Of a stretch of 64,000 nucleotides of DNA, positions 40,060-57,495 are shown one piece after another. The notes under the pieces are model-generated. The model saw nothing but the letters and a program-made list of their open reading frames with translations. It was not told the DNA's origin and did no database searches. Position numbers and translations under genes: made by a program. Position 1 is the first letter of the stretch. Each line of letters opens with the position of its first letter. Source of the stretch: Thermoanaerobaculia bacterium (GTDB lineage: Bacteria > Acidobacteriota > Thermoanaerobaculia > Multivoradales > JAIOJS01); the NCBI GenBank assembly GCA_030429235.1, contig JAUIDB010000016.1, positions 1 through 64,000 of the forward strand, in the 5' to 3' direction.

Positions 40060-40707
40060 TTGGCGCAAGTATTTCCTGCCTGGACGAACAGGATTCCTGT
40101 ATTGATCGGCGCGGTGGCCGCGGCCGGGGCTTTGATCGCTCCCGCCATCGTCTGGTACTTCTTCTCTCCTGAATTCACCGACGTCGGTTACCAACCGAAG
40201 CAGCCGGTTGCCTACAGTCACGCACTCCACGCCGGAGAGATGAATCTCGACTGTCGCTACTGCCATGCCAACGTCGAGCGGTCGAGCGTGGCCTCCGTGC
40301 CTCCCACCCAGACCTGTATGAACTGCCATCAGCTGGTGGGGCAGGACCGCCCGACGCTCGAGCCGGTCCGCGCCTCGGCCGCGAGCGGAGAGCCGATCCG
40401 GTGGGTACGGGTGCACGAGGTTCCGGACTACGCCTTCTTCCCCCACGATGCCCACCTGGCGGCGGGGGTGGGTTGCTCCAGCTGCCATGGTGACGTCGCC
40501 TCCATGGAGGTGGTTCGTCTCGAGGAGACCCTCTCGATGGGCTGGTGCCTCGATTGCCATCGCGATCCGGCGCCCCATCTGCGTCCCTTCGACGAGCTGA
40601 CGAATACTCGCTGGCAACCCGGCGAGGATCAAGCCGAGATCGGTGCCGCCCTGCTGGCCGAACGGGGCCTGGCCCCTCCCGAGGAGTGTGGAGCGTGCCA
40701 CCGATGA
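40060..40707 (+). CDS. actA: Pentahaem cytochrome c, ActA-like
   Basis: A protein of 215 aa. An N-terminal membrane anchor (about 12-35) leads into a periplasmic domain with five CxxCH sites starting at C65, C86, C139, C163 and C210. This matches ActA of alternative complex III, a quinol:electron-acceptor oxidoreductase that replaces the bc1 complex. The TTG start fixes a normal anchor. The stop overlaps the actB start (ATGA). A member of the wider tetra/pentahaem NrfH-like family could look similar, but the gene order settles it. Confidence 0.9.
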   Translation: MAQVFPAWTNRIPVLIGAVAAAGALIAPAIVWYFFSPEFTDVGYQPKQPVAYSHALHAGEMNLDCRYCHANVERSSVASVPPTQTCMNCHQLVGQDRPTLEPVRASAASGEPIRWVRVHEVPDYAFFPHDAHLAAGVGCSSCHGDVASMEVVRLEETLSMGWCLDCHRDPAPHLRPFDELTNTRWQPGEDQAEIGAALLAERGLAPPEECGACHR

Positions 40708-43607
40708 AGGGTCCCAAACAGAACTCCAAGTATTGGACGAGTCTCGAAGACCGCCGGTGGCGGGCGGAGGGGTTGCCCTCCCCGGCGGCGGAGCGTGAGT
40801 TCGCTCCCGGGGCCTTGGACCCGCCCTCTGAGGTGAGTCGTCGTTCGGTCTTGAAGTTGATGGGAGCCTCGGCCGCCTTGGCGGGGGTCGGGGTTTCCTG
40901 CCGGCCGGTCGAGCACATCGTGCCCTACGTCGAAGCGCCAGAGGGGATCATTCCAGGGATTCCGCAGCGCTACGCCACCACTCTGACCCGCGGGCAAGAG
41001 GCGATCGGGGTTCTGGTCGAGGTGCACGAGGGGCGGCCGAACAAGGTAGAGGGGAACGCGCTGCATCCCGGGTCGCTGGGCGCGGCGTCGGCTCAGGTTC
41101 AGGCTTCGGTACTCGACCTCTACGATCCCGATCGCGCCGTCGGCTTTCGGCATCAGGGGGAGCGCTCGGATCGGGAGGCCTTCGCTGCCGCCTGGTCGGC
41201 AGTGCGCGATCAGCTACCGGCCGATGGGCAGGGTTTGGCCGTCCTGGCGGAAGGGCACTGCTCGCCGACCCTGACCGAGCTCGAGCGACGGTTCGCGTCT
41301 GCCTATCCGGCGGCGCGATGGGTTACCTGGGATGCGGTCGGCGACGGCAACGCGCTCGACGGTCTCGGAGGCCACCGAGTGGTGCACCATCTGGAGGCCG
41401 CTCGCGTAGTGGCCACGTTCGACTGCGATCTGTTGCACGCCGAAAGCGGCGGACTCGCCCACGCCAGGGAGTGGAGCGCGACCCGGTCCGCTCTCGACGA
41501 CAGCATGAGCCGTCTGTACGCGATCGAGAGCTGCCTCACGCCGACTGGGGCGGTGGCGGATCACCGCTTGCCGGTTTCGAGTGGTCGGATCGGCACGCTG
41601 TTGGCCGCCCTGGCCCGTGAGTTGGGGGTCGAAGCGAGTGCCCTGGGGGCTCCGACCGACGAGGAGTCGGGCCGAATGCGGCGGTTGGCCGATGACTTAC
41701 GGAGGGCGGGTGCCGCCGCCCTGGTCGCGGTCGGCCGGAGTCAGCCACCCGCGGTCCACGCCTTGGCGTACGCCGTCAATCAGGCCCTCGGTAGTGTGGG
41801 CACGACCCTGAGCGTGCACCCCGCTACCGATGTGGCCTGGGGTCGGGACGAAGAGCTGGCGGGGCTGGTCGAGGCGATGAAAACCGGGGAGGTCCAGGTC
41901 CTGGTCGTACTGGGCGGCAACCCTGTGTACGGGGCGCCTGGGTCCCTCGGCTTCGCCGAGGCGCTGGCGGGGCTTCCCGACTCGGTTCACCTGGGTGCTT
42001 GCTTCGACGAGACCTCTGCGATCTGTGGTTGGCACGTCCCACAGACCCATGCCTTCGAGGCCTGGGGCGACGCTCGGGCCCTCGACGGTCGGGCGAGCGT
42101 GGTCCAGCCTCTGATCGAACCCCTGCACGGCGGGGTGAGCACGATCGAGTTGCTGGGGCTGATGCTCGACGGAGCTTGGTCGGACGGCCTGGAAGTGGTT
42201 CGCTCCCACTGGGAGCAGGCGCTCGGAATCGATGCCGCGGGATGGAACCGGGTGCTGCACGACGGCGTCTGGGACGACGAAGGCCTGGCGGTCCTCGATC
42301 CATCGGCGGTGGGTGTCGACCTGGAGGTGATCGCGGCTCCGGCGGCAGGGCTCGAGCTCACCTGGCGACCCTCGGCGACGACCTGGGACGGTCGCTACGC
42401 CAACAACGCGTGGTTGCAGGAAGCACCGGACCCGATCAGCAAGTTGTCCTGGGACAACGCAGCCCTGGTATCACCCGGCCTGGCGGAGCGCCTCGACCTG
42501 CAGACTCAGGATCGGATCACGCTGCGCCGAGAGGGGGTAGAGGTGGTGCTCCCGGTCGTGGTTCTACCGGGCCAGGCCGAAGAGTCGATCGCCGTCGAAC
42601 TCGGTTTCGGTCGGCGGCACGTGGGCCGGGTCGGCGACGGGGTGGGGATCGATATCAACCCGCTCCGCTCCCTGGGTCCGAACGCCTTCGTGGGTGGGGT
42701 AGAAGTCGAGAAGGTGGCGGCGGGCGCAGACTCCAAGCTCGTGTTCAGTCAGGAGCACTGGAACCTCGAGGGGCGACCGTTGATTCGCGCGGCAGACCTC
42801 GAGGAGTATCGCCAGCATCCGGACTTCGCCCAGGAGGTCGATGCGGAGTTGGAGTTCGTGGAACTCTATCCGCGGTTCGACTACAGCGAAGGCCCGCAGT
42901 GGGGCATGACCATCGATCTCAACGCTTGCACCGGCTGCATGGCCTGTGTCACCGCCTGTCAGAGTGAGAACAACATACCGGTGGTCGGCAAGGAGCAGAT
43001 CGACCGCGGCCGCGAGATGTTGTGGCTGCGAGTGGACCGGTACTTCGCCGGCGAGCCCGCCAATCCGCGGGTCGAGTTCCAGCCCGTGCCGTGTATGCAC
43101 TGCGAGAACGCACCCTGCGAGCAGGTCTGCCCGGTCGCGGCGACCGTCCACAACCCGGCGGGCCTCAACCTGATGGTCTACAACCGTTGCATCGGGACTC
43201 GCTACTGCTCGAACAACTGTCCGTACAAGGTGCGTCGGTTCAACTTCTTCAACTTCACCAAGGACACTCCGGAACTGACGAAGATGGCGATGAATCCGGA
43301 CGTCACGGTCCGTTCGCGCGGGGTGATGGAGAAGTGCACGTACTGCATCCAGCGGATCTCGGAGGCAGAGCAAACGGCTCGGCGCGACGGACGCGATCTC
43401 GCCGACGGCGATGTCGTCACCGCCTGTCAGCAGACCTGCCCGACGCAGGCGATCACCTTCGGCGACTTGCGGCTCGAGGGAAGCCAGGTGGCGCAGCTCA
43501 AGGAGAGTCCGCGCAACTACACGATCCTCACCGAACTCGCCAACTTCCCGCGTACTTCCTATCTGGCTCCGATTCGCAACCCGAATCCGGATTGGGAGGA
43601 GGCGTGA
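40704..43607 (+). CDS. actB: ActB-like molybdopterin-enzyme/Fe-S protein
   Basis: A protein of 967 aa, ActB of alternative complex III. A Tat-like segment SRRSVLKLMGASAALAGVGV (about 46-65) precedes a Mo-bisPGD-enzyme-like region to about residue 730; in known ActB this part holds no Mo cofactor. The Fe-S half has four cysteine sets: C742/745/748/752, C797/800/805/809, C829/835/839 and C878/881 with C908/912. One set has three cysteines in a row, as for a 3Fe-4S cluster. Coupled by ATGA to actA and GTGA to the next gene. Confidence 0.92.
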   Translation: MKGPKQNSKYWTSLEDRRWRAEGLPSPAAEREFAPGALDPPSEVSRRSVLKLMGASAALAGVGVSCRPVEHIVPYVEAPEGIIPGIPQRYATTLTRGQEAIGVLVEVHEGRPNKVEGNALHPGSLGAASAQVQASVLDLYDPDRAVGFRHQGERSDREAFAAAWSAVRDQLPADGQGLAVLAEGHCSPTLTELERRFASAYPAARWVTWDAVGDGNALDGLGGHRVVHHLEAARVVATFDCDLLHAESGGLAHAREWSATRSALDDSMSRLYAIESCLTPTGAVADHRLPVSSGRIGTLLAALARELGVEASALGAPTDEESGRMRRLADDLRRAGAAALVAVGRSQPPAVHALAYAVNQALGSVGTTLSVHPATDVAWGRDEELAGLVEAMKTGEVQVLVVLGGNPVYGAPGSLGFAEALAGLPDSVHLGACFDETSAICGWHVPQTHAFEAWGDARALDGRASVVQPLIEPLHGGVSTIELLGLMLDGAWSDGLEVVRSHWEQALGIDAAGWNRVLHDGVWDDEGLAVLDPSAVGVDLEVIAAPAAGLELTWRPSATTWDGRYANNAWLQEAPDPISKLSWDNAALVSPGLAERLDLQTQDRITLRREGVEVVLPVVVLPGQAEESIAVELGFGRRHVGRVGDGVGIDINPLRSLGPNAFVGGVEVEKVAAGADSKLVFSQEHWNLEGRPLIRAADLEEYRQHPDFAQEVDAELEFVELYPRFDYSEGPQWGMTIDLNACTGCMACVTACQSENNIPVVGKEQIDRGREMLWLRVDRYFAGEPANPRVEFQPVPCMHCENAPCEQVCPVAATVHNPAGLNLMVYNRCIGTRYCSNNCPYKVRRFNFFNFTKDTPELTKMAMNPDVTVRSRGVMEKCTYCIQRISEAEQTARRDGRDLADGDVVTACQQTCPTQAITFGDLRLEGSQVAQLKESPRNYTILTELANFPRTSYLAPIRNPNPDWEEA

Positions 43608-44263
43608 GGACCAGGCGCACGCTCCAGGTCGGGCGTGACCTCCTGATGCTAGCGCTGTTGCTGTCGCTCGCCGGTTGCCGGGGCTGCCCGAAATCGAGTC
43701 CACCGATCCATCTCAACCCCAACATGGACAACCAACCGAAGCTCCGGGCCCAGTCGGCTAGCGACTTCTTCGCCGACGGGGCCGCGATGCGGACCCCGGT
43801 GGCGGGCACGGTTGCGCGAGGAGCCCTGCCGGTCGACGACCTGTTCCAGACCGGACGCGAGGGTGAAGGCTACGTCGTCGGCATTCCGACGCCGGTCGAC
43901 GCGGAACTCCTGGCCCGGGGCGCCGACCGCTACGCCATCTACTGTGCTCCGTGCCATGCGGATTCGGGCAACGGCAAGGGCATGCTCTTCCAGCGTGCCC
44001 AGATCGAGTCCGCCGACCTCGTCGAACCCCGTCTGGTCGACATGCCGTCGGGGCAGATCTTCGAGACCATCAGCCAGGGTCTGGGCCTGATGCCAGCCTA
44101 CGACTACGCCATCCCGGTGGCTGATCGTTGGGCCATCGTGGCCCACGTCCGAATGCTGCAAGGGAGCGACCCGACGACGATGAGCGTACCCAACGGGCCG
44201 AGAGTGGTGGCCGCCGAGGGTGAGAGCCCGAACGGGGCCGACGAGCAGGGAGCCGCACCGTGA
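43604..44263 (+). CDS. actE: Lipoprotein monohaem cytochrome c, ActE-like
   Basis: A protein of 219 aa from a GTG overlapping the actB stop. The lipobox LSLAGC ends the signal peptide. PKLRAQSASDFFADGAAMR and VPVDDLFQ-like text with TPVAGTVARG is typical of ActE. One CAPCH binds haem c, with a Met axial ligand probably in LMPAY. In canonical operons actC and actD come between actB and actE; both are missing here. The stop overlaps the next start (GTGA). Confidence 0.85.
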   Translation: MRTRRTLQVGRDLLMLALLLSLAGCRGCPKSSPPIHLNPNMDNQPKLRAQSASDFFADGAAMRTPVAGTVARGALPVDDLFQTGREGEGYVVGIPTPVDAELLARGADRYAIYCAPCHADSGNGKGMLFQRAQIESADLVEPRLVDMPSGQIFETISQGLGLMPAYDYAIPVADRWAIVAHVRMLQGSDPTTMSVPNGPRVVAAEGESPNGADEQGAAP

Positions 44264-46125
44264 AGAAGAGCCATCTCCTGATCGGTCTCGTGGTCCTGCT
44301 GGCACTCGGTGGCGTGGCGGCCGAACTGGCCACCTTCATGGACGAACGGCTCGCTTACAGCTCACCGTTGGCCGCGGACGCAGAACATGCGGCCGAACCG
44401 ACCCCACGCGAGCTGGCCTTGGAGGCCCAGGCCGCGGCCCAGGCCGAGGAGGATGCCAACCGTCCCTACGAGGAGGAGGAGTACCGAGCCTTCCCGAAGA
44501 TCGGGAGTCGCGTAGCGGTCTGGATGGTGGCCCAACTCCATCTGCTTTTTGCCGCCTTCGTGTTGGCGGTTCCGATGTTCGCCCTGATCATCGAGTTCAT
44601 CGGCTACAAGAGCGGTGACAAGCGTTACGACGACCTGGCCTACGAGTTCACCAAGCTGCTCTCGACTTCGTTCTCGTTCACCGCGACGCTCGGTGCGCTC
44701 CTCACGTTCCTTCTGGTAGCTCTCTACCCGAAGTTCATGAACTACCTGATGCACGTCTTCTCGCCGACGTTCCTCCCCTACACGCTGCTCTTCTTCTTCG
44801 AGGCGATCTTCCTCTACTCGTACTACTACGGGTGGCACGCCTTCTCCAAGCGGGTCCACCTTCTGCTCGGGTTGGCGCTGAATCTGGTCGGTACCGCGAT
44901 CATGTTCATCGCCAACGCCTGGTTGACCTTCATGACCACCCCGGCCGGCATCAGCTCCACCGGGGCCCGGATCTCGACCTGGGAGGCCGTGACCAACTAC
45001 ACCTGGATGCCGATCAACATCCACCGCATCATCGCCAACGTCGCCTTCGGCGGGTCGATCGCCGCAGCCTACGCCGCCTTCCAGTTCCTCAAGGCGAAGA
45101 CGCCGGAGGAGCGTGCTCACTACGACTGGATGGGCTACATCGGGAACTTCGTCGCCATCGCTGCCCTCCTGCCGTTGCCCTTCGCCGGCTACTGGCTGGC
45201 CTCCGAGATCTACGCTTTCTCGCAGACCATGGGGCTGACGATGATGGGCGGGGCCTTCTCCTGGCTCTTCATCATTCAGGCGATCCTGATCGGCAATCTG
45301 TTCCTGGCGGCCAACTACTACTTGTGGCTGGGGATGGGGCGCATCGAAGGGGCGGAACGTTTCCGGTCGTACATCAAGTATCTGCTGATCGTCATCACCG
45401 GTTGCTTCCTGGTCTGGGCCACGCCGCGCTCGATCCTGGCGACCGTCGGGGAGGTGCAGGCGATGGGTGGATCATCGCATCCCGCCCTCGGATTCCTCGG
45501 CGTCATGTCGGCCAAGAACACGGCCGTCAACCTGCTGATCCTCACCACCTACGTCAGCTTCCTGCTCTACCGACGTAGCGGGCGGATCCCCACGGTGGCG
45601 TGGGCGAAGCTCGGCAACATCGTGCAGTTCGCCATCTTCGCGGTGGCCGCCTCGACAGTGCTCTTCTTCGGTATCTACGGCTACTTCGTCGAAGCCGCCG
45701 TCCGCATCAAGTTCTCCATCCCGCAGGTGCTCTCGGTTCTGGTGGCGATGGTCGCGGTCACGGTGATCGATATCTTTCTGCTTCGTGGAGCCAAGGAGAC
45801 AGAGACTCGCTGGGGCCAGATCTCCAATACCTCGCAGTACGTGCTGATCTTCCTCGCCGTCACCTTCACCTGGCTGATGGGACTGATGGGGTACGTCCGA
45901 TCCGGCCTGCGACAGCATTGGCATGTCTACGGTGTGATTCGCGACACCTCGCCCGACGCCTACACTCCGACGCTCGGTTTCGCGACCCAGGTCGTTTCCG
46001 TGACGGTCCTGATCTTCTTCGGCTTCATCGGGGTGGTCTTCTGGCTGGCGAGCCTCGGCGGGTCTCACGGTTCGGAGGATGAAGCCGCCGTGACCTCGCC
46101 ATCCCTGGCCGAGGGAGAGACCTGA
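44260..46125 (+). CDS. CydA-like subunit of the cytochrome bd superfamily
   Basis: A protein of 621 aa with a signal-anchor, an acidic outer segment (about 30-78), then about 12-13 membrane spans. Spans 1-5 follow CydA: AQLHLLFAAF (H94, like E. coli H19), LLFFFEAIFLYSYYYGW (E181, like E107), FIANAW, and INIHRII (H255, like H186). The acidic residue eight before E181 (E99 in E. coli) is lost. The GRQPW motif and the preceding Glu are not found; VWATPRSI takes that place. The quinol-binding Q-loop is absent. No CydB is encoded nearby. It sits where ActC would be. Function as quinol, cytochrome or O2 site is open. Confidence 0.8.
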   Translation: MKKSHLLIGLVVLLALGGVAAELATFMDERLAYSSPLAADAEHAAEPTPRELALEAQAAAQAEEDANRPYEEEEYRAFPKIGSRVAVWMVAQLHLLFAAFVLAVPMFALIIEFIGYKSGDKRYDDLAYEFTKLLSTSFSFTATLGALLTFLLVALYPKFMNYLMHVFSPTFLPYTLLFFFEAIFLYSYYYGWHAFSKRVHLLLGLALNLVGTAIMFIANAWLTFMTTPAGISSTGARISTWEAVTNYTWMPINIHRIIANVAFGGSIAAAYAAFQFLKAKTPEERAHYDWMGYIGNFVAIAALLPLPFAGYWLASEIYAFSQTMGLTMMGGAFSWLFIIQAILIGNLFLAANYYLWLGMGRIEGAERFRSYIKYLLIVITGCFLVWATPRSILATVGEVQAMGGSSHPALGFLGVMSAKNTAVNLLILTTYVSFLLYRRSGRIPTVAWAKLGNIVQFAIFAVAASTVLFFGIYGYFVEAAVRIKFSIPQVLSVLVAMVAVTVIDIFLLRGAKETETRWGQISNTSQYVLIFLAVTFTWLMGLMGYVRSGLRQHWHVYGVIRDTSPDAYTPTLGFATQVVSVTVLIFFGFIGVVFWLASLGGSHGSEDEAAVTSPSLAEGET

Positions 46126-46694
46126 TGCGGGTGCCGGTTACGCTGAAAGTCGCACTCCTGACGGTGGTGGCGACCGCGTTCTACACCTACGTCGGGCAGT
46201 TGGTGCCGCAGAAGGAGGTCCACCCCCCCGAGGTGGTCGAAATGAGCGCCGACCTGACCACGGCTGACCTCGTCGGCATCGGCGAAGAGATCGCCAACGG
46301 TAAGGGCCTCTGCTTCACGTGCCATACCGTCGGGAAGTCCGGCGCGTTGCGCTTCCCCGACCTCGACGGAATCGCCACCCGGGCCGAGACCCGCATCGCC
46401 GGGTTCGACGCGCTGACCTATCTGGCGCAGTCGCTGTACGACCCAGAGAGCTACATCGTCGAAGGCTTCGCCGGCGGGATGCCGCCGATCTCCAAACCCC
46501 CCATCGGTCTCACCGACGACGAGATCCGGGCGGTCATCGCCTACCTGCAGACGCTCGGCGGACAAGCGACGGTGACCATGGACACGCTGATCCCCTTCTC
46601 GGCCGCCGCGCCGGAGGGTGTCCCGATGGCGGCCGAGTCCGAGAGTGGCGAGAGCGAGCCGCCGGCCGAAACCTCGGAGGAGGGTGCCGCATGA
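46125..46694 (+). CDS. Membrane-anchored monohaem cytochrome c
   Basis: A protein of 189 aa. One N-terminal membrane segment (about 5-24), then a class-I cytochrome c fold with CFTCH and a probable Met ligand in GGMPPIS; C-terminal tail of Ala/Glu/Ser. Its ATG shares one base with the stop of the CydA-like gene, and its stop overlaps the next start (ATGA). Likely an electron-transfer subunit of the same complex. Confidence 0.85.
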   Translation: MRVPVTLKVALLTVVATAFYTYVGQLVPQKEVHPPEVVEMSADLTTADLVGIGEEIANGKGLCFTCHTVGKSGALRFPDLDGIATRAETRIAGFDALTYLAQSLYDPESYIVEGFAGGMPPISKPPIGLTDDEIRAVIAYLQTLGGQATVTMDTLIPFSAAAPEGVPMAAESESGESEPPAETSEEGAA

Positions 46695-47521
46695 TGAACT
46701 GGATGATCGTGCTGCCGGTGCTCTTGGTCCTGGCGGGCTTGCGGTTCGTCAAACCCAGCATGCTGGGGTGGGCCGCCGCCTGGTGGATTGCGGTCTGGAT
46801 CATCATGGACTTCGGCTTCGCGGTGCCGGTGCCCAAATCGGTCGTCAAGGAGTTCTTGGGCATCGTCACGCTAGCCCTCGCGGCTTACGTCAGTTCGGAC
46901 CCCCAGCGGTGGGCCGAGGTCCGAGACCCGATGGTCGCGTTCCTGACGGAACGCCGCCACCTGCCGCTGCTCGGACTGGTCGCAGTGGCGATTCCGGCGG
47001 CGGTGGCGGCGAGCATCTATCTCGAGATGACCGCTCCGGCGCAAGCGCCGACCTTCGGTCGCACCGTGCACCCGGCGCCACCGGCGACCCTGACCGTCCA
47101 CGACGTCACCCACGACATGCAGACGCTCGACAACCCGCTACGGAGCCTCGAGACGTCGGACCCCGAGGCCTTCGCGGCGCACCTCGAAGAGGGGCGTCGG
47201 ATCTACTACGAGAACTGCTTCTACTGCCACGGAGATCTCATGCAGGGGGCGGGGATGTTCGCGCACGCGCTCAACCCGATACCCACCAACTTCCAGGATT
47301 CGGGCACCATCGCCATGCTGCAGGAGTCGTTCCTCTTCTGGCGCGTGGCCAAGGGCGGTCCCGGCCTGCCCGAGGAGGGCGGTCCCTGGATGTCGGCGAT
47401 GCCGGCCTGGGAGCAGTTCCTCTCCGAAGAGGAGATGTGGGAGGTCATTCTCTTCCTCTACGAGTTCACGGAACAACGACCGAGAGCTCTCCACGCCGCC
47501 AGTGGTGGAGAGGGGCACTGA
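46691..47521 (+). CDS. Cytochrome c with three membrane segments
   Basis: A protein of 276 aa. Three hydrophobic segments (about 3-17, 25-65 as two parts, and 92-112) precede a periplasmic cytochrome domain with CFYCHGD and a Met ligand likely in WMSAMPAW. Residues after the last span (PTFGRTVHPAPPAT) are Pro-rich. The stop and the next start share one base (TGATG). Such anchored cytochromes beside a CydA-like protein may pass electrons into or out of the complex. Confidence 0.82.
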   Translation: MMNWMIVLPVLLVLAGLRFVKPSMLGWAAAWWIAVWIIMDFGFAVPVPKSVVKEFLGIVTLALAAYVSSDPQRWAEVRDPMVAFLTERRHLPLLGLVAVAIPAAVAASIYLEMTAPAQAPTFGRTVHPAPPATLTVHDVTHDMQTLDNPLRSLETSDPEAFAAHLEEGRRIYYENCFYCHGDLMQGAGMFAHALNPIPTNFQDSGTIAMLQESFLFWRVAKGGPGLPEEGGPWMSAMPAWEQFLSEEEMWEVILFLYEFTEQRPRALHAASGGEGH

Positions 47522-49293
47522 TGCGCGGTCGTCGGGTGCGGAGGCTGCGTTCCCCGGGGCTGGCCAGCTGGGTGCTCTGTGTGGGATTGATCGCCAGTTC
47601 GCCGCTGCTGGGCCAGGTCGACCTGGGTACCGACGAGCAGCGGGCCACGGGCAAGGTGGTCTACGACAAGTACTGTTCTCAGTGTCACGGCGACACCGGG
47701 GCGGGAGATGGCTACGCGGCACCCTACCTGCGGCCAAAACCTCGCGATTTCACCTCCGGCAAGTACAAGATCCGCTCGACGCCAAACGGTATGTTGCCGA
47801 CCGACGACGACATCCGTCGGGTCATCGAGGTCGGGATTCCCTACACGGCGATGCCCGGATTCCCCGAACTGAGTCCGGCCGAGGTCACCGGGTTGGTCTA
47901 CTACCTGAAGACCTTCTCCAGCGACTTCGAGGATCCCGAAGCCTACCTGCCGGCACTGACCACGCCGCCGGCTCCACCGTTCTCGGCCGACAACGTCGAG
48001 AATGCGAAGCGAGTGTACGAAGAGATCGGCTGCGCTCGCTGCCATGGGACCAGTGGACGGGGTGACGGGAGCTCGGCACCGACGCTGGTCGACGACTGGG
48101 GCGACCCGATTCGGGCCGCCGACCTCTCACGCCCCTGGACCTTCCGAGGTGGGGCCAGCCGGGAGGACATCTACCGCTCGATCAGCACCGGCTTGAACGG
48201 CACGCCGATGGCGGGATTCGAGGAGGGTCTCTCGCCCGAGGAACGCTGGCAGATCGTCGACTTCATCCAGTCGCTGGCGGGCGACAGCATGTCGGATCCA
48301 GGCTACGCCAGCCTGGTGACGGCGCGAGCGGTCGAAGGCGGAATCGACCTCGAACGAGGCGCCGAGCTGTTCGAGGGGGCGGAGCCGGCACTGCTGCCGG
48401 TGCTCGGTCAGATCGTCCAACCCGGACGGTCTTTCCACCCCGGAGTCGTGGCGGTGGAGATCCAGGCGGTGTACGACCGCGAGGACGTCGCGTTTCGGGT
48501 GTCGTGGCACGACATCCAGGCCAATCGCAATGGGACGAACGGCCCCGATCTCGTGGTCGAGGAGATGTCAGCGGAGGCCGGGAGTGAGGACGAAGGGAGC
48601 TTCTGGGGGGACGAGGAGGCCGCCGAGGACGAGGGAGGCTTCTGGGGGGACGAAGCCGAGGACGAGAGCGACGACGCTGGAGGCGACTTCTGGGGCGACG
48701 ATGCCGCGGGCGAAGACGACGGTGGCGGCTTCTGGGACGACACCGAGGAATCGGCAGACGGAGGTTCCGATGGTGATCTCGCCGAGTTCTCGGATGCCAT
48801 CGCGCTCCAGTTCCCGCGGTCGCTGCCCGCTGGCATTCGGCAACCCTACTTCCTCAACGGCGACAGCCAGAACCCGGTCGAACTCTGGTTCGTCGACCTC
48901 GGATATCCCGAGGCGCCGGAGGTTTGGGAGGGACGAGGGAGCCAGGCCCTGGTGCCGTCCGACGAGGATGCCCCCTTCGTCGCCGCCTCCTACGAGGATG
49001 GCCGTTGGTCGGTCCTGTTCAAACGCTCCCGTCGCAATGGCCAGGGGATCGCGTTCGACGAAGGGACCTTCGTGCCCCTGGCGCTCTCGGTCTGGGATGG
49101 CTTCAACGATGAGCGAGGCAGCAAGCGAGGTGTGACCGCCTGGTATCCGGTCTACGTGCCGCCGATGGAGAGTCCATCACCATTTCCGAAGATGGCCAAG
49201 ACAGCGGCCATTGTACTGTTGGTCGAGTTGTTGATCATCGCCTGGGTCCGTCGTCGCCATCGACCCAGCGCCGCCGAGGAAGCGCCGGCGTGA
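47521..49293 (+). CDS. Dihaem cytochrome c with haem b (EB_dh-like) domain and FW repeats
   Basis: A protein of 590 aa with a signal peptide. Two cytochrome c domains carry CSQCH (about residue 51) and CARCH (about 175). From about 275 to 540 it resembles the ethylbenzene-dehydrogenase gamma/haem b domain (VVAVEIQAVYDREDVAFRVS, then FVPLALSVWDG). An acidic insert in this domain (about 355-415) has four units ending in F-W: 361, 374, 390 and 404. A C-terminal membrane segment anchors it. It ends the overlap-coupled gene run. The acidic repeats are likely exposed and may bind a partner. Confidence 0.82.
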   Translation: MRGRRVRRLRSPGLASWVLCVGLIASSPLLGQVDLGTDEQRATGKVVYDKYCSQCHGDTGAGDGYAAPYLRPKPRDFTSGKYKIRSTPNGMLPTDDDIRRVIEVGIPYTAMPGFPELSPAEVTGLVYYLKTFSSDFEDPEAYLPALTTPPAPPFSADNVENAKRVYEEIGCARCHGTSGRGDGSSAPTLVDDWGDPIRAADLSRPWTFRGGASREDIYRSISTGLNGTPMAGFEEGLSPEERWQIVDFIQSLAGDSMSDPGYASLVTARAVEGGIDLERGAELFEGAEPALLPVLGQIVQPGRSFHPGVVAVEIQAVYDREDVAFRVSWHDIQANRNGTNGPDLVVEEMSAEAGSEDEGSFWGDEEAAEDEGGFWGDEAEDESDDAGGDFWGDDAAGEDDGGGFWDDTEESADGGSDGDLAEFSDAIALQFPRSLPAGIRQPYFLNGDSQNPVELWFVDLGYPEAPEVWEGRGSQALVPSDEDAPFVAASYEDGRWSVLFKRSRRNGQGIAFDEGTFVPLALSVWDGFNDERGSKRGVTAWYPVYVPPMESPSPFPKMAKTAAIVLLVELLIIAWVRRRHRPSAAEEAPA

Positions 49294-49355: not shown

Positions 49356-51518
49356 ATGTACCAGAGCATCTACGTTCCCGTCGACAACTCCCGCCACTCC
49401 AATCGGGCGATCGATACTGCCCTGCAACTCGGCCAGGGATTTCAGTCCCGGATGACCGGTTCGCACGTCTACGCAGCCAAGATGCACGACTATCGGTTCA
49501 AGCAGATGGAGTTCACCTTGCCGGAGGAGTACCTCGTCGAGCAGGAACTCCACCGGCAGCGCAAGATCCACGACAGCCTCATCACCATGGGGCTGCAGCT
49601 GATCTCCGACTGCTATCTCGAACCGATGGGGGCGCGCTGCGAGGAGGTCGGACTCCCCTTCGAACCGAAGATGATGGACGGCAAGCACTCCACGGAACTG
49701 ATCCGCGACATCGAGGACAGCGACTACGACCTCGTCGTCATGGGCGTCCTCGGGGTCGGCAAGACCCGCGACAGTCAGATCGGCGCGGTGTGCTCTCGCG
49801 TGACCCAGGAGTGCGCCCGCGATACCTGGGTGGTCAAGCACCTACCGAAGAAGGACGAGCCAGAGCGCGACACGATCCTGGTCGGGGTGGACGGCAGCCC
49901 TCGCTCCTTCGGGGCCCTGACCACGGCCTTGGAACTGGCTCGCAAGTTCGACAAGAAGGTCGAGGTGATCGGTGTCTACGATCCCTACCTGCACTACGCG
50001 GTGTTCAAGGGGATCGTCGACGTGCTGACCGAGCGCGCGGCCAAAGTCTTCCGCTTCGAGGAGCAGAACCAGCTGCACGAGGAGATCATCGACACTGGAC
50101 TGGCCCAGATCTACCAGTCTCATCTCGAGGTCGCCGAGAGCATGGCGCGGGAGGCGGGGATCGAGGTCACCAAGACGCTGCTCGACGGCAAGGCGTTCCA
50201 GAAGGTGCTCGACCACGTGCGCAAGGTCGAACCCTGGGTGTTGGTCGTGGGACGCGACGGCGTCCACGCCGGCGATGACGAGACCGGGTTGGGAAGCAAC
50301 ACCGAGAACCTGCTTCGGCTCTGTGCCTGCGACATTCTGCTGACCAACTCCGAGGTGGTACCCGAACTCGACCTGCGGGCCGAGGAGTCGATCCACTGGA
50401 CGCCGGAGGCGCTCGAGCGCATGGACCGGGTGCCTCCTCAGGTCCTCGGGATCGCTCGTACCGCGATCCTGCGGTTGGCGATCGAACAGGGGCACAGTGT
50501 GGTGTCGTCGGACCTGGTCACCGAGGCGATGGAGCGCTTCATGCCGAAGAAGGCGGCCGACGCCAACGTCCGGTTGGCCGAGGCGTTGGTGCTGCATCGG
50601 GCCGAAGAGGAACCGGTCGCGGTCTGTGCCAGTTGTGGGGTGGCGGCTCGAACCCAGGATCCCGTGACCTGCACGGTTTGCGGCTCGGTCGAGTTCGAGC
50701 GGATCTCGGCCGAGACCATCGCTCGGATCATCGCCGAGGAGGGCGGGGTCGAGGAGGAGATGACCTACGACGGCCGCAAGATCCGCTGGACGCAGGAGGC
50801 GAAGGCCTCGCTGAAGTTTCTGGAAGATCGCTACCAACGGCGGCGGGCCAAGGCCCGGATCGAGAAGGCGGCCCGGATCCAGAAGCTCGACCCGATCAGT
50901 CTAGAGTTCGCGCAACGATTCGTCGAGGAGGAGGCCGGTGTGCTCTACCAGCCATCGGCCGAGTACCAAGAGCGGAAGGCCGAGGTGGCTCGCAACGGGG
51001 TGCCCGAGCGGGTGGAGCCGGCACTACCGCGCCCTGCCGATGAGGATGCCGAGGACGACGCCGAGCGCGAAGGCAAGATCTGGGGTCGGGACGCCAACGA
51101 CGTCCCCCTGGTATCGAGCTACGAGTGGCGGGCGGAAGCGGTCGAACGAGTGCTGCGGGTACCGGCGGGATTCATGCGGGACAATACTCAGGAGCGGATC
51201 GAGGGTCTGGCCGCGAAGGACCCTCGACAGGCGATCGATCTCGCCCTGGTCGAAGAGGGTCTGGCGCTCGGCCGGCAGCTGATGGAGGAGATGCTGTCGC
51301 AGTACCAACCCCCCGCCCCTGCCTCGACCGAGCCGGTGGTCGAAGCGGCCCCCACCCCTGAACCGACCAAGGCGAGCGGTGGCTGTCCCTTCCACGTGGC
51401 CCTGGAGAGTGGGGCTGCCGACACGGTCCGCGAGGTGATGAAGGAGTACCCGCTCAACGAAGTCAGCGTCATGACCGAGATGGAGCGCCAGAAGCGCGAC
51501 CTGCCCAAAGAGAACTAG
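49356..51518 (+). CDS. Universal stress protein fused to PCP_red domains
   Basis: A protein of 720 aa, no export signal. Two Usp domains (about 1-165 and 168-335; ILVGVDGSPRS, then VVGRDG). Next a PCP_red-like domain (about 348-400: HWTPEALERMDRVPPQVL), a zinc ribbon C424-x2-C427/C439-x2-C442, a second such domain (about 470-540: IRWTQEAKASLKFLEDRYQR) and a third (about 585-640). GGCPFHVA follows. PCP_red is known from the ChlB/BchB C-terminus; there is no other photosynthesis gene here. An AGGAG site precedes the ATG, 62 nt after the respiratory genes. I infer an assembly or regulatory factor for them. Confidence 0.75.
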   Translation: MYQSIYVPVDNSRHSNRAIDTALQLGQGFQSRMTGSHVYAAKMHDYRFKQMEFTLPEEYLVEQELHRQRKIHDSLITMGLQLISDCYLEPMGARCEEVGLPFEPKMMDGKHSTELIRDIEDSDYDLVVMGVLGVGKTRDSQIGAVCSRVTQECARDTWVVKHLPKKDEPERDTILVGVDGSPRSFGALTTALELARKFDKKVEVIGVYDPYLHYAVFKGIVDVLTERAAKVFRFEEQNQLHEEIIDTGLAQIYQSHLEVAESMAREAGIEVTKTLLDGKAFQKVLDHVRKVEPWVLVVGRDGVHAGDDETGLGSNTENLLRLCACDILLTNSEVVPELDLRAEESIHWTPEALERMDRVPPQVLGIARTAILRLAIEQGHSVVSSDLVTEAMERFMPKKAADANVRLAEALVLHRAEEEPVAVCASCGVAARTQDPVTCTVCGSVEFERISAETIARIIAEEGGVEEEMTYDGRKIRWTQEAKASLKFLEDRYQRRRAKARIEKAARIQKLDPISLEFAQRFVEEEAGVLYQPSAEYQERKAEVARNGVPERVEPALPRPADEDAEDDAEREGKIWGRDANDVPLVSSYEWRAEAVERVLRVPAGFMRDNTQERIEGLAAKDPRQAIDLALVEEGLALGRQLMEEMLSQYQPPAPASTEPVVEAAPTPEPTKASGGCPFHVALESGAADTVREVMKEYPLNEVSVMTEMERQKRDLPKEN

Positions 51519-52206: not shown

Positions 52207-53166
52207 ATGAAGACTACCGACGACTCTGACCAGCAGGAAACCCACGAGGGACTCGATCCTCTCGAGCCGGCGGATCTGGATATCACCCGGATCTCTCGGC
52301 CGCGCGATTTCGATAGCAAAGCGCGTCGGACGGCTACGCTGGTGGTGATGAACGGCCCTGAGATCGGACACGACTTTCCCCTGCGGCGCAAAGAGGTGGT
52401 GATCGGGCGGGGGGTAGGAGCGGACATCTTGATCCGCCATCGTGAGGTCTCGCGGCGCCACGCCAAGATCGAGATCCTTCGGTTCGGCAACGACGAGCTG
52501 TACCGGCTGACTGATCTCGGGAGTACCAATCAGGTTCTGGTCAACGGGGAGCAGGTGCTGACGCACGTCCTGGCTGACGGCGACAAGATCCATCTCGGCG
52601 AGGTGGTGCTGGAGTTTGGCCTTCAGGATGCCATCGACTCGAAGTTTCATGCCGAGGTCCAAAATCGGATCCGCTACGACGACCTCACGGGGCTGCTGAC
52701 CTACGGTTCGTTCCAGACGGCCCTGGTCTGGGAACTCGAGCGCCACAGCGAGGGAGCCGGCTGTGCGGTGGTGATGATGGACCTCGACGACTTCAAACAG
52801 CTCAACGACACCTACGGTCACCTGGCGGGCTCGGCGGTGCTGGAGGAGATCGGCCAACTTCTGGCCGACAACGTGCGACACTTCGATGTGGTCGCTCGCT
52901 ACGGCGGCGAGGAGTTCGTGGCCTACCTACCGGAGACCGACGAGCAGGAAGCGATGGTGGCGGTCGAGAGGATCCGGCGCCTGATCGAGGAGCACGTCTT
53001 CGAGCACCAGGCACGCGAGATCCAGCTGACCATCTCGATGGGCGTCTCGCACTTCCCCGACGATGGCCGGGAGCTCGAGTCTCTGGTTCAGGTGGCCGAC
53101 GAGCGGCTCTACTGCGCCAAGCGGGAGGGCAAGAACCGAGTGATCGGTCCGGGGCGAGACTACTAG
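52207..53166 (+). CDS. FHA-domain diguanylate cyclase
   Basis: A protein of 319 aa. An FHA domain (about 65-140: VIGRGVGADILIRHREVSRR, then LGSTNQVLVNGE) that should bind phosphothreonine is joined to a GGDEF domain (about 155-315). The active site is G-G-E-E-F, and an RxxD inhibition site lies five residues before it, so it should make cyclic di-GMP with feedback control. A kinase such as the one at 19110 could be the partner, which is speculation. CATAAT (52167-52172) may be its -10. Confidence 0.9.
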   Translation: MKTTDDSDQQETHEGLDPLEPADLDITRISRPRDFDSKARRTATLVVMNGPEIGHDFPLRRKEVVIGRGVGADILIRHREVSRRHAKIEILRFGNDELYRLTDLGSTNQVLVNGEQVLTHVLADGDKIHLGEVVLEFGLQDAIDSKFHAEVQNRIRYDDLTGLLTYGSFQTALVWELERHSEGAGCAVVMMDLDDFKQLNDTYGHLAGSAVLEEIGQLLADNVRHFDVVARYGGEEFVAYLPETDEQEAMVAVERIRRLIEEHVFEHQAREIQLTISMGVSHFPDDGRELESLVQVADERLYCAKREGKNRVIGPGRDY

Positions 53167-55243: not shown

Positions 55244-56089
55244 ATGGTCTCCTACCGATTCTGCCGCCCCGACGATCTACCGCTGCTGGTGCGCGCGATC
55301 AACGAGTGCTACGACACGCACTTCGCTCGCCCGCCGATGACGGCGGAGGGGTTTCGAGTCGGCATGCGCGAGATCGATCTCTGGCCGAGCAACTGCATGG
55401 TGGCCGTCGGGCCGCAGGGGCCGATCGGCGTCTCCGTGGCCACCAAGCGATCCCGCGAGGTGCTGGTCTGGGCCGTCGGAGTGCGCCCTGGCCATCAGAG
55501 GGAAGGTCATGGCCGGCACCTGGTGACCTCTCTGCGACAGAAGCTGGCCGTCCTGGGACCGGAGCGACTGGTGGCCGAGGTGCACCAAGGAGACGAAGCG
55601 GCCCAGGCCTTCTTGCAGGCCATCGGCTTTCGTCGTGAGCAGACCCTCGTCGATTGGGAGCGACCGCGAGGGCCGGAACTCCCCTCGCTCGACCTGATTC
55701 AATCCATCGGGGTCGAAGATCTAGACCGGATCGGGCTGCTGAGCGCGCCCGAGGATGCCGCCTGGGGCCGACAGATCGAGAGTCTGCGTGGACAGTGCGG
55801 TGTCCTGACCGGTTTTGCCATGGTCGCCGGAGAGTCGGTCGAGGGATGGCTGCTCTACCGCCGTGACGGGCCCCTGGCCGAGGTCGTGGGGTGGGGCGGT
55901 GCGGCGCGCTCGACCTCACGCTCCCGCCTCTTTGACCTCCTCTGCCGGCGCGTCGAAGGGGAAACTGCCAAGGCGCTTCGGCTGCCCAGACTCCAGGCGG
56001 CGGAGAGCGAGCAGCTGGCCCTGCCGGCGCTGGGTTTTCGCCCGGCCGCAAGCTATCATCGCTACTCCGGCGAAGCGATCCCGGCCTGA
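55244..56089 (+). CDS. GNAT-family N-acetyltransferase
   Basis: A protein of 281 aa. The N-terminal half is a GNAT fold (CRPDDLPLLVRAINECYDTH, then WAVGVRPGHQREGHGRHLVT with the acetyl-CoA loop, then AQAFLQAIGFRREQTL). The second half repeats a weaker version, as in two-domain GNAT proteins. Substrate unknown. It is 42 nt upstream of the Mrp-type gene. Confidence 0.8.
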   Translation: MVSYRFCRPDDLPLLVRAINECYDTHFARPPMTAEGFRVGMREIDLWPSNCMVAVGPQGPIGVSVATKRSREVLVWAVGVRPGHQREGHGRHLVTSLRQKLAVLGPERLVAEVHQGDEAAQAFLQAIGFRREQTLVDWERPRGPELPSLDLIQSIGVEDLDRIGLLSAPEDAAWGRQIESLRGQCGVLTGFAMVAGESVEGWLLYRRDGPLAEVVGWGGAARSTSRSRLFDLLCRRVEGETAKALRLPRLQAAESEQLALPALGFRPAASYHRYSGEAIPA

Positions 56090-56131
56090 GCGGACTCGGG
56101 CCTCGGCAGACCTCTCGAACGATGGGGCGTG

Positions 56132-57025
56132 ATGAAGCGGTACAGCGAGATAGCAGGCGACGGTGGCTCCGACATTCTGGGGCAGGTCATCGAGCAGCGT
56201 CGAGCCCAGGCCGCCAGCCTGGCCGGAGTGGGGCACCTGGTCGCGATCGCTTCGGGGAAGGGAGGGGTCGGCAAGAGTACGCTCACCCTGGTTCTCGGTC
56301 TCGCGCTCCGACAACGGGGTCGGCGGGTCGCGATTCTCGACTGTGATCTGAACGGGCCCTGCCAGGCGCAGTTGGCGGGGTTGCAAGAGGTCCCTTGGCA
56401 TCTGTCCGAAGAAGGACTCGGTGTTCCACGGCGTGCCGACGGGCTGGGAGTCCTGTCGCTGGGAGGCGTCCTGGCGGCCGAACAACCGATGCCGCTCGAC
56501 TCCGTGGCGCAGGGGGACGCCCATACCTGGAGGGCCACGCGAGAGATGGCGATGCTCTCGCAGCTGATCACCGCGACCTCGTGGGGGGAGCTAGACCTGC
56601 TGCTGGTGGACCTGCCACCGGGGAGCGAACGGACCCTGCACCATCTGGGGGTGCTCGGGGCCCGAACCTCGGTGGTGCTGGTCACGCTTCCGTCCGCACT
56701 GGCCACCGGGGTCGTGTCCCGCTCGCTGGGCGCCCTGCGGGCGGCGGGTCATGAACCTCTGGGGTACCTCGAGAACATGGCCGGCTACTACTGCCGGGAC
56801 TGTGGCGAGGTCCGTTCCCTGTTTCCCGAGGCGCCACGGTCTCTCGACTTGCCCTGTCTCGGCTCGATTCCTTTCGACCCCGAGTGGGCGGAGCGCGGCG
56901 ACCGAGGCTGGCCGCCGCTCGGCGAGGAGCGGGATCCTGCGCTCGAAGCGGTCGGTCACGCGGCCGAAGCCCTGCTAGCATCTTTAGCTCACCGGGAGAG
57001 CCCAGAGGAGGAGGATCCGAGATGA
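56132..57025 (+). CDS. Mrp/ApbC-type P-loop ATPase
   Basis: A protein of 297 aa. The deviant Walker A GKGGVGKST is at 42-50; DLPPGSERTLHHLG and YLENMAGYYC match Mrp/NBP35, and YCRDCGE keeps the CxxC that binds a bridging Fe-S cluster. Mrp proteins carry or insert Fe-S clusters. Start taken at ATG 56132, right after an in-frame GTG. The N-terminal DUF59 domain of some Mrp proteins is absent. The stop overlaps the PCP_red gene (ATGA), so the two probably work together, perhaps in maturing a respiratory enzyme. Confidence 0.87.
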   Translation: MKRYSEIAGDGGSDILGQVIEQRRAQAASLAGVGHLVAIASGKGGVGKSTLTLVLGLALRQRGRRVAILDCDLNGPCQAQLAGLQEVPWHLSEEGLGVPRRADGLGVLSLGGVLAAEQPMPLDSVAQGDAHTWRATREMAMLSQLITATSWGELDLLLVDLPPGSERTLHHLGVLGARTSVVLVTLPSALATGVVSRSLGALRAAGHEPLGYLENMAGYYCRDCGEVRSLFPEAPRSLDLPCLGSIPFDPEWAERGDRGWPPLGEERDPALEAVGHAAEALLASLAHRESPEEEDPR

Positions 57026-57495
57026 AGTTTCTCTGCGTAGCGTGCGACGAGGCGATGAAGCTGCAGGATGCAATGCCGGCCGAGGATCCGGGCACGCTGG
57101 CCGTGGTGTACTGCTGCCCGGAGTGTGATCGGCAGATGGCGATGCTGACCAATCCCTGGGAGACCCAGCTGGTGCAGTCGCTGGGCGTGAAGATCGGACC
57201 CGGCGCCGAGAGCGAGTCGACGGGCTGCCCTTTCGCCGGGGCCGTACAGGGACTGCAATCGGCGGAGACCGAGTCGTTGTCCACCTCCGAAACCACGTCC
57301 CCGCCGGCTTCCGCTGAGGTGACCGCTGAGGGAGCGCTGGTCTGGACTCCGGCCGCGCTGGCGCGGTTGGAACGCATTCCGGAGTTCGTTCGTCCCATGG
57401 CCCGCCAGGGGATCGAGCACTGGGCGCGGGACCACGGCTGGCCGCAAGTGACCGAAGAGGTGCTCGAGGCGGCGCGGGGCGGGATGGGGCTCTAG
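57022..57495 (+). CDS. Small protein with zinc-ribbon-like Cys and PCP_red domain
   Basis: A protein of 157 aa. CVACDEAM and YCCPECDRQM near the start give a four-cysteine metal site. STGCPFAG echoes GGCPFHVA of the stress-protein fusion at 49356. Residues about 110-150 (LVWTPAALARLERIPEFVRP) are a PCP_red domain. It starts within the stop of the Mrp-type gene. With that partner it may be an Fe-S or metal-dependent assembly factor for the respiratory genes on both sides. Confidence 0.78.
   Translation: MKFLCVACDEAMKLQDAMPAEDPGTLAVVYCCPECDRQMAMLTNPWETQLVQSLGVKIGPGAESESTGCPFAGAVQGLQSAETESLSTSETTSPPASAEVTAEGALVWTPAALARLERIPEFVRPMARQGIEHWARDHGWPQVTEEVLEAARGGMGL

Follow-up and report, generated by a model that had tools for sequence, protein, structure and literature searches.

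We find that a protein joining two universal stress protein (Usp) domains to three copies of PCP_red belongs, together with a Mrp/NBP35-type ATPase, a Cys4-CPF-PCP_red protein and a radical SAM/SPASM protein ending in PCP_red (rSAM-PCP_red), to one conserved module, and that the presence or absence of this module tracks one divergent CydA-like protein. The fusion (USP-PCP_red) is encoded in a 64,000-nucleotide stretch of DNA from a Thermoanaerobaculia bacterium (contig JAUIDB010000016.1), referred to below as the window.

Architecture and conservation of USP-PCP_red

The gene and its parts lie at the following positions of the window:

49356..51518, + strand: USP-PCP_red protein, 720 aa, ATG start, in the order Usp1-Usp2-PCP1-Cys4-PCP2-PCP3-tail
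49356..49838, + strand: Usp domain 1 (Pfam, alignment, tandem-USP fold)
49869..50342, + strand: Usp domain 2 (Pfam, alignment)
50397..50528, + strand: PCP_red copy 1 (aa 348-391), 37.3 bits on the DNA, above the Pfam cut-off
50625..50681, + strand: Cys4 knuckle C424-x2-C427...C439-x2-C442, zinc-ribbon or rubredoxin-like
50787..50909, + strand: PCP_red copy 2 (aa 478-518), 18.2 bits on the DNA, weak alone
51126..51257, + strand: PCP_red copy 3 (aa 591-634), 23.6 bits on the DNA
51384..51392, + strand: Cys-Pro-Phe motif of the C-terminal tail, present in part of the family only

Profile searches bear out the two Usp domains and the up to three PCP_red-like segments that a preliminary description, made from the sequence alone, had proposed. 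Usp (Pfam PF00582) matches the protein in two stretches (E 1.1e-29; 104.2 bits against a gathering threshold of 24) and PCP_red (Pfam PF08369) in three (E 2.1e-15; 56.9 bits against 32.5), with one copy above the cut-off alone; the latter search, which the same description had named as its own refuting test, thus returned a significant match. The weak copies 2 and 3 are backed by the alignment of copy 2 to the stand-alone PCP_red NMR structure 2L09 and by several relatives in which copy 3 scores above the cut-off. The PCP_red sequence pattern in the protein reads W-x-x-A...R-x-x-IP-x-F-x-R.

The Usp domains were inspected for the ATP-binding motif G-2x-G-9x-G-(S/T) together with the Asp of strand 1. 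Domain 1 has the Asp and the glycine spacing of this ATP-type motif, D10 and G130-x2-G133-x9-G143, with D10, G130, G133 and G143 invariant; the last Gly is followed by Ala in the window protein and by Ser in most relatives. The glycine motif of domain 2 has 10 spacing residues instead of 9, then Gly-Ser. A long helix bearing HDYRFKQME...RQRKIHD is inserted in domain 1, and the insert of domain 2, YDPYLHY...FRFEEQNQLHEEIIDTGLAQIY, is almost invariant. The predicted structure (AlphaFold, 47 sequences) has a mean pLDDT of 79, and its N-terminal half is matched by tandem USPs that include UspE and, as the best PDB hits, Rv2623 and TTHA0350 with ATP. These share with USP-PCP_red two Usp folds per chain and, at least for domain 1, glycines spaced as in the ATP-type motif. 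Unlike them, USP-PCP_red adds long helical inserts with invariant Tyr, His, Glu and Asp, and its C-terminal half consists of the Cys4 knuckle and the three PCP_red copies.

The knuckle follows PCP_red copy 1 and precedes copy 2; C424, C427, C439 and C442 are invariant in 47 homologs. What had been called a zinc ribbon stands as a four-cysteine element but not as a zinc site in particular: RUBY_RBDX (rubredoxin-like) or HypA-like matches in 18-19 of the 47 homologs make iron as possible as zinc. The Cys-Pro-Phe motif, which we take to resemble the heme regulatory CP motif, is a hint at sequence level that the tail may hold such a motif; the Rokubacteria and Poribacteria proteins stop short of it.

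Both Usp and PCP_red are retained in 47 of 47 scanned homologs. Identity to the window protein is 48-85% over the family, across phyla, with more than 100 invariant residues in the 47-member alignment, and the helical inserts of both Usp domains hold long invariant stretches. Two of the three PCP_red copies of the window protein score weakly, as a chance or decaying fusion without function might show, but this conservation refutes such an origin, to which we attach virtually no weight.

PCP_red elsewhere is part of BchB, a tetrapyrrole reductase subunit, and BchN-BchB binds tetrapyrrole (PMC7242693). USP-PCP_red is without the nitrogenase-like catalytic body of BchB: TIGR01278 matches it over the C-terminal 50-60 positions only (19.6 bits against 490). 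Full BchB is absent from the genome, in which the BchB model gives C-terminal PCP_red matches only. On this result hidden phototrophy was rejected, and the earlier remark on the absence of anything photosynthetic is borne out for the genome searched. BchL, the partner of BchB, is a nucleotide-binding Fe-S protein (PMC7242693), and the Mrp ATPase of the module can be likened to it, as it is one by family.

Apart from the module, the phylum sample has PCP_red only in phototroph-like genomes with BchB and in a single decayed remnant. Across 199 Acidobacteriota genomes it was found in 17 carriers of the module, in three genomes of one genus (the BchB body being present in both genomes read) and in G058. 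The last was considered as a case of PCP_red without the module and rejected: its PCP_red is the decayed tail of an rSAM-PCP_red gene, a C terminus of 112 aa (L172, reverse strand, ~1345-1680). The G058 genome is without USP-PCP_red and CydA-like, an apparent loss of the entire module.

An archaeal annotation shows that the pairing of Usp with PCP_red had already been seen: USP linked to LI-POR_suB-like_C is mentioned, as a domain annotation only, for Methanomicrobiaceae (PMC12159084). No description of the module or of its link to the CydA-like protein was found in the literature searched, which is not proof of novelty.

The module and its association with a CydA-like oxidase

USP-PCP_red starts ~60 bp downstream of the final cytochrome gene in a run of ActA-ActB-ActE-CydA-like-cytochrome c genes, and its earlier placement behind a respiratory operon is thereby confirmed. 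The operon and the other module genes are:

40060..40707, + strand: ActA-like pentaheme cytochrome c (five CxxCH)
40707..43607 (start approximate), + strand: ActB/QrcBC-like molybdoprotein-like plus Fe-S subunit
43640..44263 (start approximate), + strand: ActE-like monoheme cytochrome c
44260..46125, + strand: CydA-like protein, divergent cytochrome bd subunit I fold (Pfam 9e-25, fold, co-occurrence)
46125..46694, + strand: cytochrome c
46691..47521 (start approximate), + strand: membrane cytochrome c
47518..49293 (start approximate), + strand: diheme cytochrome c with an ethylbenzene-dehydrogenase-type heme-binding domain
55244..56089, + strand: GNAT-type protein of the module
56129..57025, + strand: Mrp/NBP35-type P-loop Fe-S ATPase (NUBPL/ParA family, 3e-47)
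57022..57495, + strand: small protein with Cys4, GCPF and PCP_red (PCP_red 4.8e-15)
~C58:71169-72383, - strand: radical SAM/SPASM gene with C-terminal PCP_red, beyond the window on the same contig

The Act-type operon (40060-49293) holds ActA, ActB, ActE and CydA-like, with no copy of ActC or ActD close to them; the contig does carry NrfD-type and ActD genes past the window (L009:7767-9218 and L010:1372-1929). An FHA-GGDEF diguanylate cyclase (52207-53166 of the window) stands between the USP gene and the remaining module.

The CydA-like protein matches the Pfam CydA profile over its N-terminal half (87.5 bits against 26.2), and the ten best PDB folds for its predicted model (pLDDT 72.6) are all CydA chains. 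His94, aligned to the canonical axial His region (H19/H21), is found in 38 of 42 relatives and Lys in 4; the Lys proteins (L074, L084, L088 and L094) belong to a Sulfidibacter/Holophagae-type clade. In gene order only, the window resembles Nitrospirales, in which the passages concerned of one report describe the OR-N5 cytochrome bd-like gene directly downstream of act genes (PMC12342949). There actABCDE lie upstream, whereas the window operon has no ActC or ActD nearby, and those passages contain no USP-PCP_red module. The OR-N family has been termed uncharacterized (PMC10839748).

PCP_red scores above the cut-off at three loci in the genome, all within a span of ~22 kb on the window's contig: USP-PCP_red, the small Cys4-PCP_red protein beside the Mrp ATPase (with C5, C8, C32, C35, ETQ and CPF invariant in its family) and rSAM-PCP_red. 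A GTDB genome scan yielded 249 relatives, and 80 were kept with flanks of up to 10 kb. Clustering of neighbours over 81 loci, many of them cut off by contig ends, placed the Mrp ATPase at 59, rSAM-PCP_red at 43, Cys4-PCP_red at 39 and the GNAT-type protein at 34. The neighbourhood is conserved in many of the 80 loci, from Acidobacteriota, Myxococcota-type genomes, Rokubacteria, Methylomirabilota, Poribacteria and others. One cultured carrier, Sulfidibacter corallicola M133 (L088), combines USP-PCP_red, the Mrp ATPase, the small Cys4 protein and CydA-like. The module lies mostly downstream of ActA-ActB-ActE-CydA-like-cytochromes in the Acidobacteriota and Myxococcota-type genomes, and downstream of an aa3 oxidase operon, not next to CydA-like, in Rokubacteria and Poribacteria; these two settings occupy separate parts of the tree.

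Within the order (31 genomes), USP-PCP_red and CydA-like are both present in 13 of 13 module genomes and in 0 of 18 others. The same 13 genomes, and no others, contain any PCP_red (E <= 1e-3), the AhbD-like radical SAM protein (279 bits or more; 183 for the next best) and the full CydA-like protein (at least 840 bits, against 54 in the best module-less genome). The result is the same over the 199 Acidobacteriota genomes, where the two proteins occur together in 17/17 carriers versus 0/182, with CydA-like scores of at least 290 bits in carriers and 69 bits in the next best genome; the carriers fall into nine families, and presence is patchy inside some of these. The corresponding chance values, ~5e-9 for the order and 6e-25 for Acidobacteriota, assume independent genomes, which these are not. 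CydA-like was also detected in 21 of 22 further genomes, mostly of Rokubacteria, Poribacteria, Planctomycetota, Methylomirabilota and Hydrogenedentota, the one exception being a 2.8 Mb metagenome assembly. Co-transfer of a single gene block could explain the co-occurrence, but in several of these further genomes CydA-like is unlinked to the module on the chromosome, which argues against it. Where Poribacteria and Rokubacteria have the module, CydA-like is found elsewhere in the same genomes, and a tie of the module solely to the aa3 oxidase, drawn from their neighbourhoods, was rejected accordingly. A non-photosynthetic role tied to respiration, as first suggested from the window, is strongly supported by this co-occurrence with one CydA-like oxidase.

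The radical SAM-PCP_red enzyme and heme synthesis

All 21 scanned members of rSAM-PCP_red match NirJ2, AhbD, NirJ and AhbC, with NirJ2 and AhbD among the best matches, and almost all of the closest families consist of heme enzymes. AhbC, AhbD and NirJ all modify heme side chains (PMC7242693). They have radical SAM and SPASM in common with rSAM-PCP_red, which differs in its C-terminal PCP_red and in scoring well under the curated equivalog cut-offs, every one of which it fails (NirJ2 345 against 500, AhbD 296 against 500). The CxxxCxxC cysteines C17, C21 and C24 and the SPASM cysteines C221, C242, C260, C298, C301, C307, C310 and C328 are invariant in the 21 members, and the members read end in PCP_red, save one truncated by a contig end.

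Given these best matches, rSAM-PCP_red could be an AhbD-type coproheme decarboxylase for bulk heme b, with USP-PCP_red serving general heme synthesis; in some organisms the last coproheme step is carried out by AhbD (PMC7242693), and ChdC was detected in only 2 of the 31 order genomes (G004 and G020), leaving 11 of 13 module genomes without it. We consider this quite improbable. All 13 module genomes within the order have HemH, as do 11 of the 18 that lack the module; in one module genus HemF, HemY, HemH, HemA and HemC occur together, which leaves the standard route to heme b open to it. ChdC lies near rSAM-PCP_red in both G004 and G020, and the module genes track CydA-like, not general heme use. 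With HemF, HemY and HemH in the one genus and ChdC nearby in the two other genomes, bulk heme b synthesis was rejected as the task of the enzyme, which is probably not an ordinary heme b step.

The ChdC genes near rSAM-PCP_red belong to an additional ChdC-HemH-HemY cassette in G020 (L136:14344-17364), with the same order in G004 (L133), which sets the module among heme genes; its HemH is a second ferrochelatase and its HemY-type protein a protoporphyrinogen oxidase.

Possible roles of the module

We give about an even chance to a reading in which the module is dedicated to maturation of the CydA-like oxidase: it would make, or pass on, a special tetrapyrrole (a modified heme) for this enzyme, and USP-PCP_red would be a soluble accessory protein that binds ATP. 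The constant partners speak for assembly or cofactor maturation: one is a heme-type radical SAM enzyme, another an Fe-S ATPase, and the third a further protein with PCP_red. We infer tetrapyrrole delivery, PCP_red contact and ATP-gated transfer in the following form. Mrp-type proteins carry Fe-S clusters, and the Mrp ATPase would give such clusters to the radical SAM enzyme, which would in turn alter heme side chains. The product would be carried by Cys4-PCP_red and by USP-PCP_red, a putative ATP-binding scaffold or carrier in which the Usp tandem, by its ATP state, would set hold or release, and would then be inserted into apo-CydA-like. PCP_red would be a shared small helical unit contacting the tetrapyrrole or fellow module proteins, and the oxidase would work with an Act-type or cytochrome c respiratory chain. 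We found no direct evidence that PCP_red binds a tetrapyrrole in proteins other than BchB. Against maturation, radical SAM/SPASM enzymes also modify peptides, the module adjoins aa3 oxidase genes in Rokubacteria and Poribacteria, and Lys replaces the axial heme His in four CydA-like relatives.

A more specific proposal, which we advance tentatively and with the balance somewhat against it, is that an undescribed biogenesis system inserts a new rSAM-modified heme into a separate bd-like class and that PCP_red is a general tetrapyrrole-handling domain. If true, PCP_red would be common to photosynthesis and respiration, and no fewer than three different proteins would use it here. For the cofactors and assembly of divergent bd-like oxidases in many uncultured bacteria, the gene set supplies candidate assembly factors; it also places PCP_red, a domain met chiefly in chlorophyll synthesis, in a second setting, that of heme-linked respiration.

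The preliminary description had left the choice between sensing and assembly; assembly is now the preferred side, and a regulator or sensor, although unlikely in our estimate, is its main rival. The Usp tandem would then sense ATP, energy or O2-related stress and control or protect the respiratory complex, with PCP_red as a protein-protein contact. The tandem fold near Rv2623 and UspE and the position of the gene directly after the operon's last cytochrome gene suit such a role, as does the rise of Nitrospira marina USPs alongside adjoining operons induced at low O2 (PMC8115632). It leaves unexplained, however, the joint gain and loss with two more PCP_red proteins and a heme-type radical SAM enzyme, and domain scans of the window protein and 47 homologs found no DNA-binding, kinase or receptor domain. 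A module led by Mrp that assembles or repairs the Fe-S subunit ActB would account for the Cys4 proteins and for the Mrp/NBP35 ATPase, seen in 59 of the 81 neighbourhoods, and ActB is expected by family to have several 4Fe-4S sites. We nevertheless find this very doubtful: in Rokubacteria and Poribacteria the module adjoins aa3 oxidase genes, with no ActB recognised there, the correlate across phyla is CydA-like, and the radical SAM enzyme would be left without a clear task.

The Poribacteria loci contain two further kinds of gene. An extra small protein with a weak PCP_red match (1.9e-4) and, by eye, a coiled-coil-like N-terminus lies beside rSAM-PCP_red (L128:18598-19014 and relatives), and in some Poribacteria USP-PCP_red is followed by a separate tandem-USP-like protein (L112:11951-12835, L113:16777-17631, L125:13947-14798 and L127:11954-12835).
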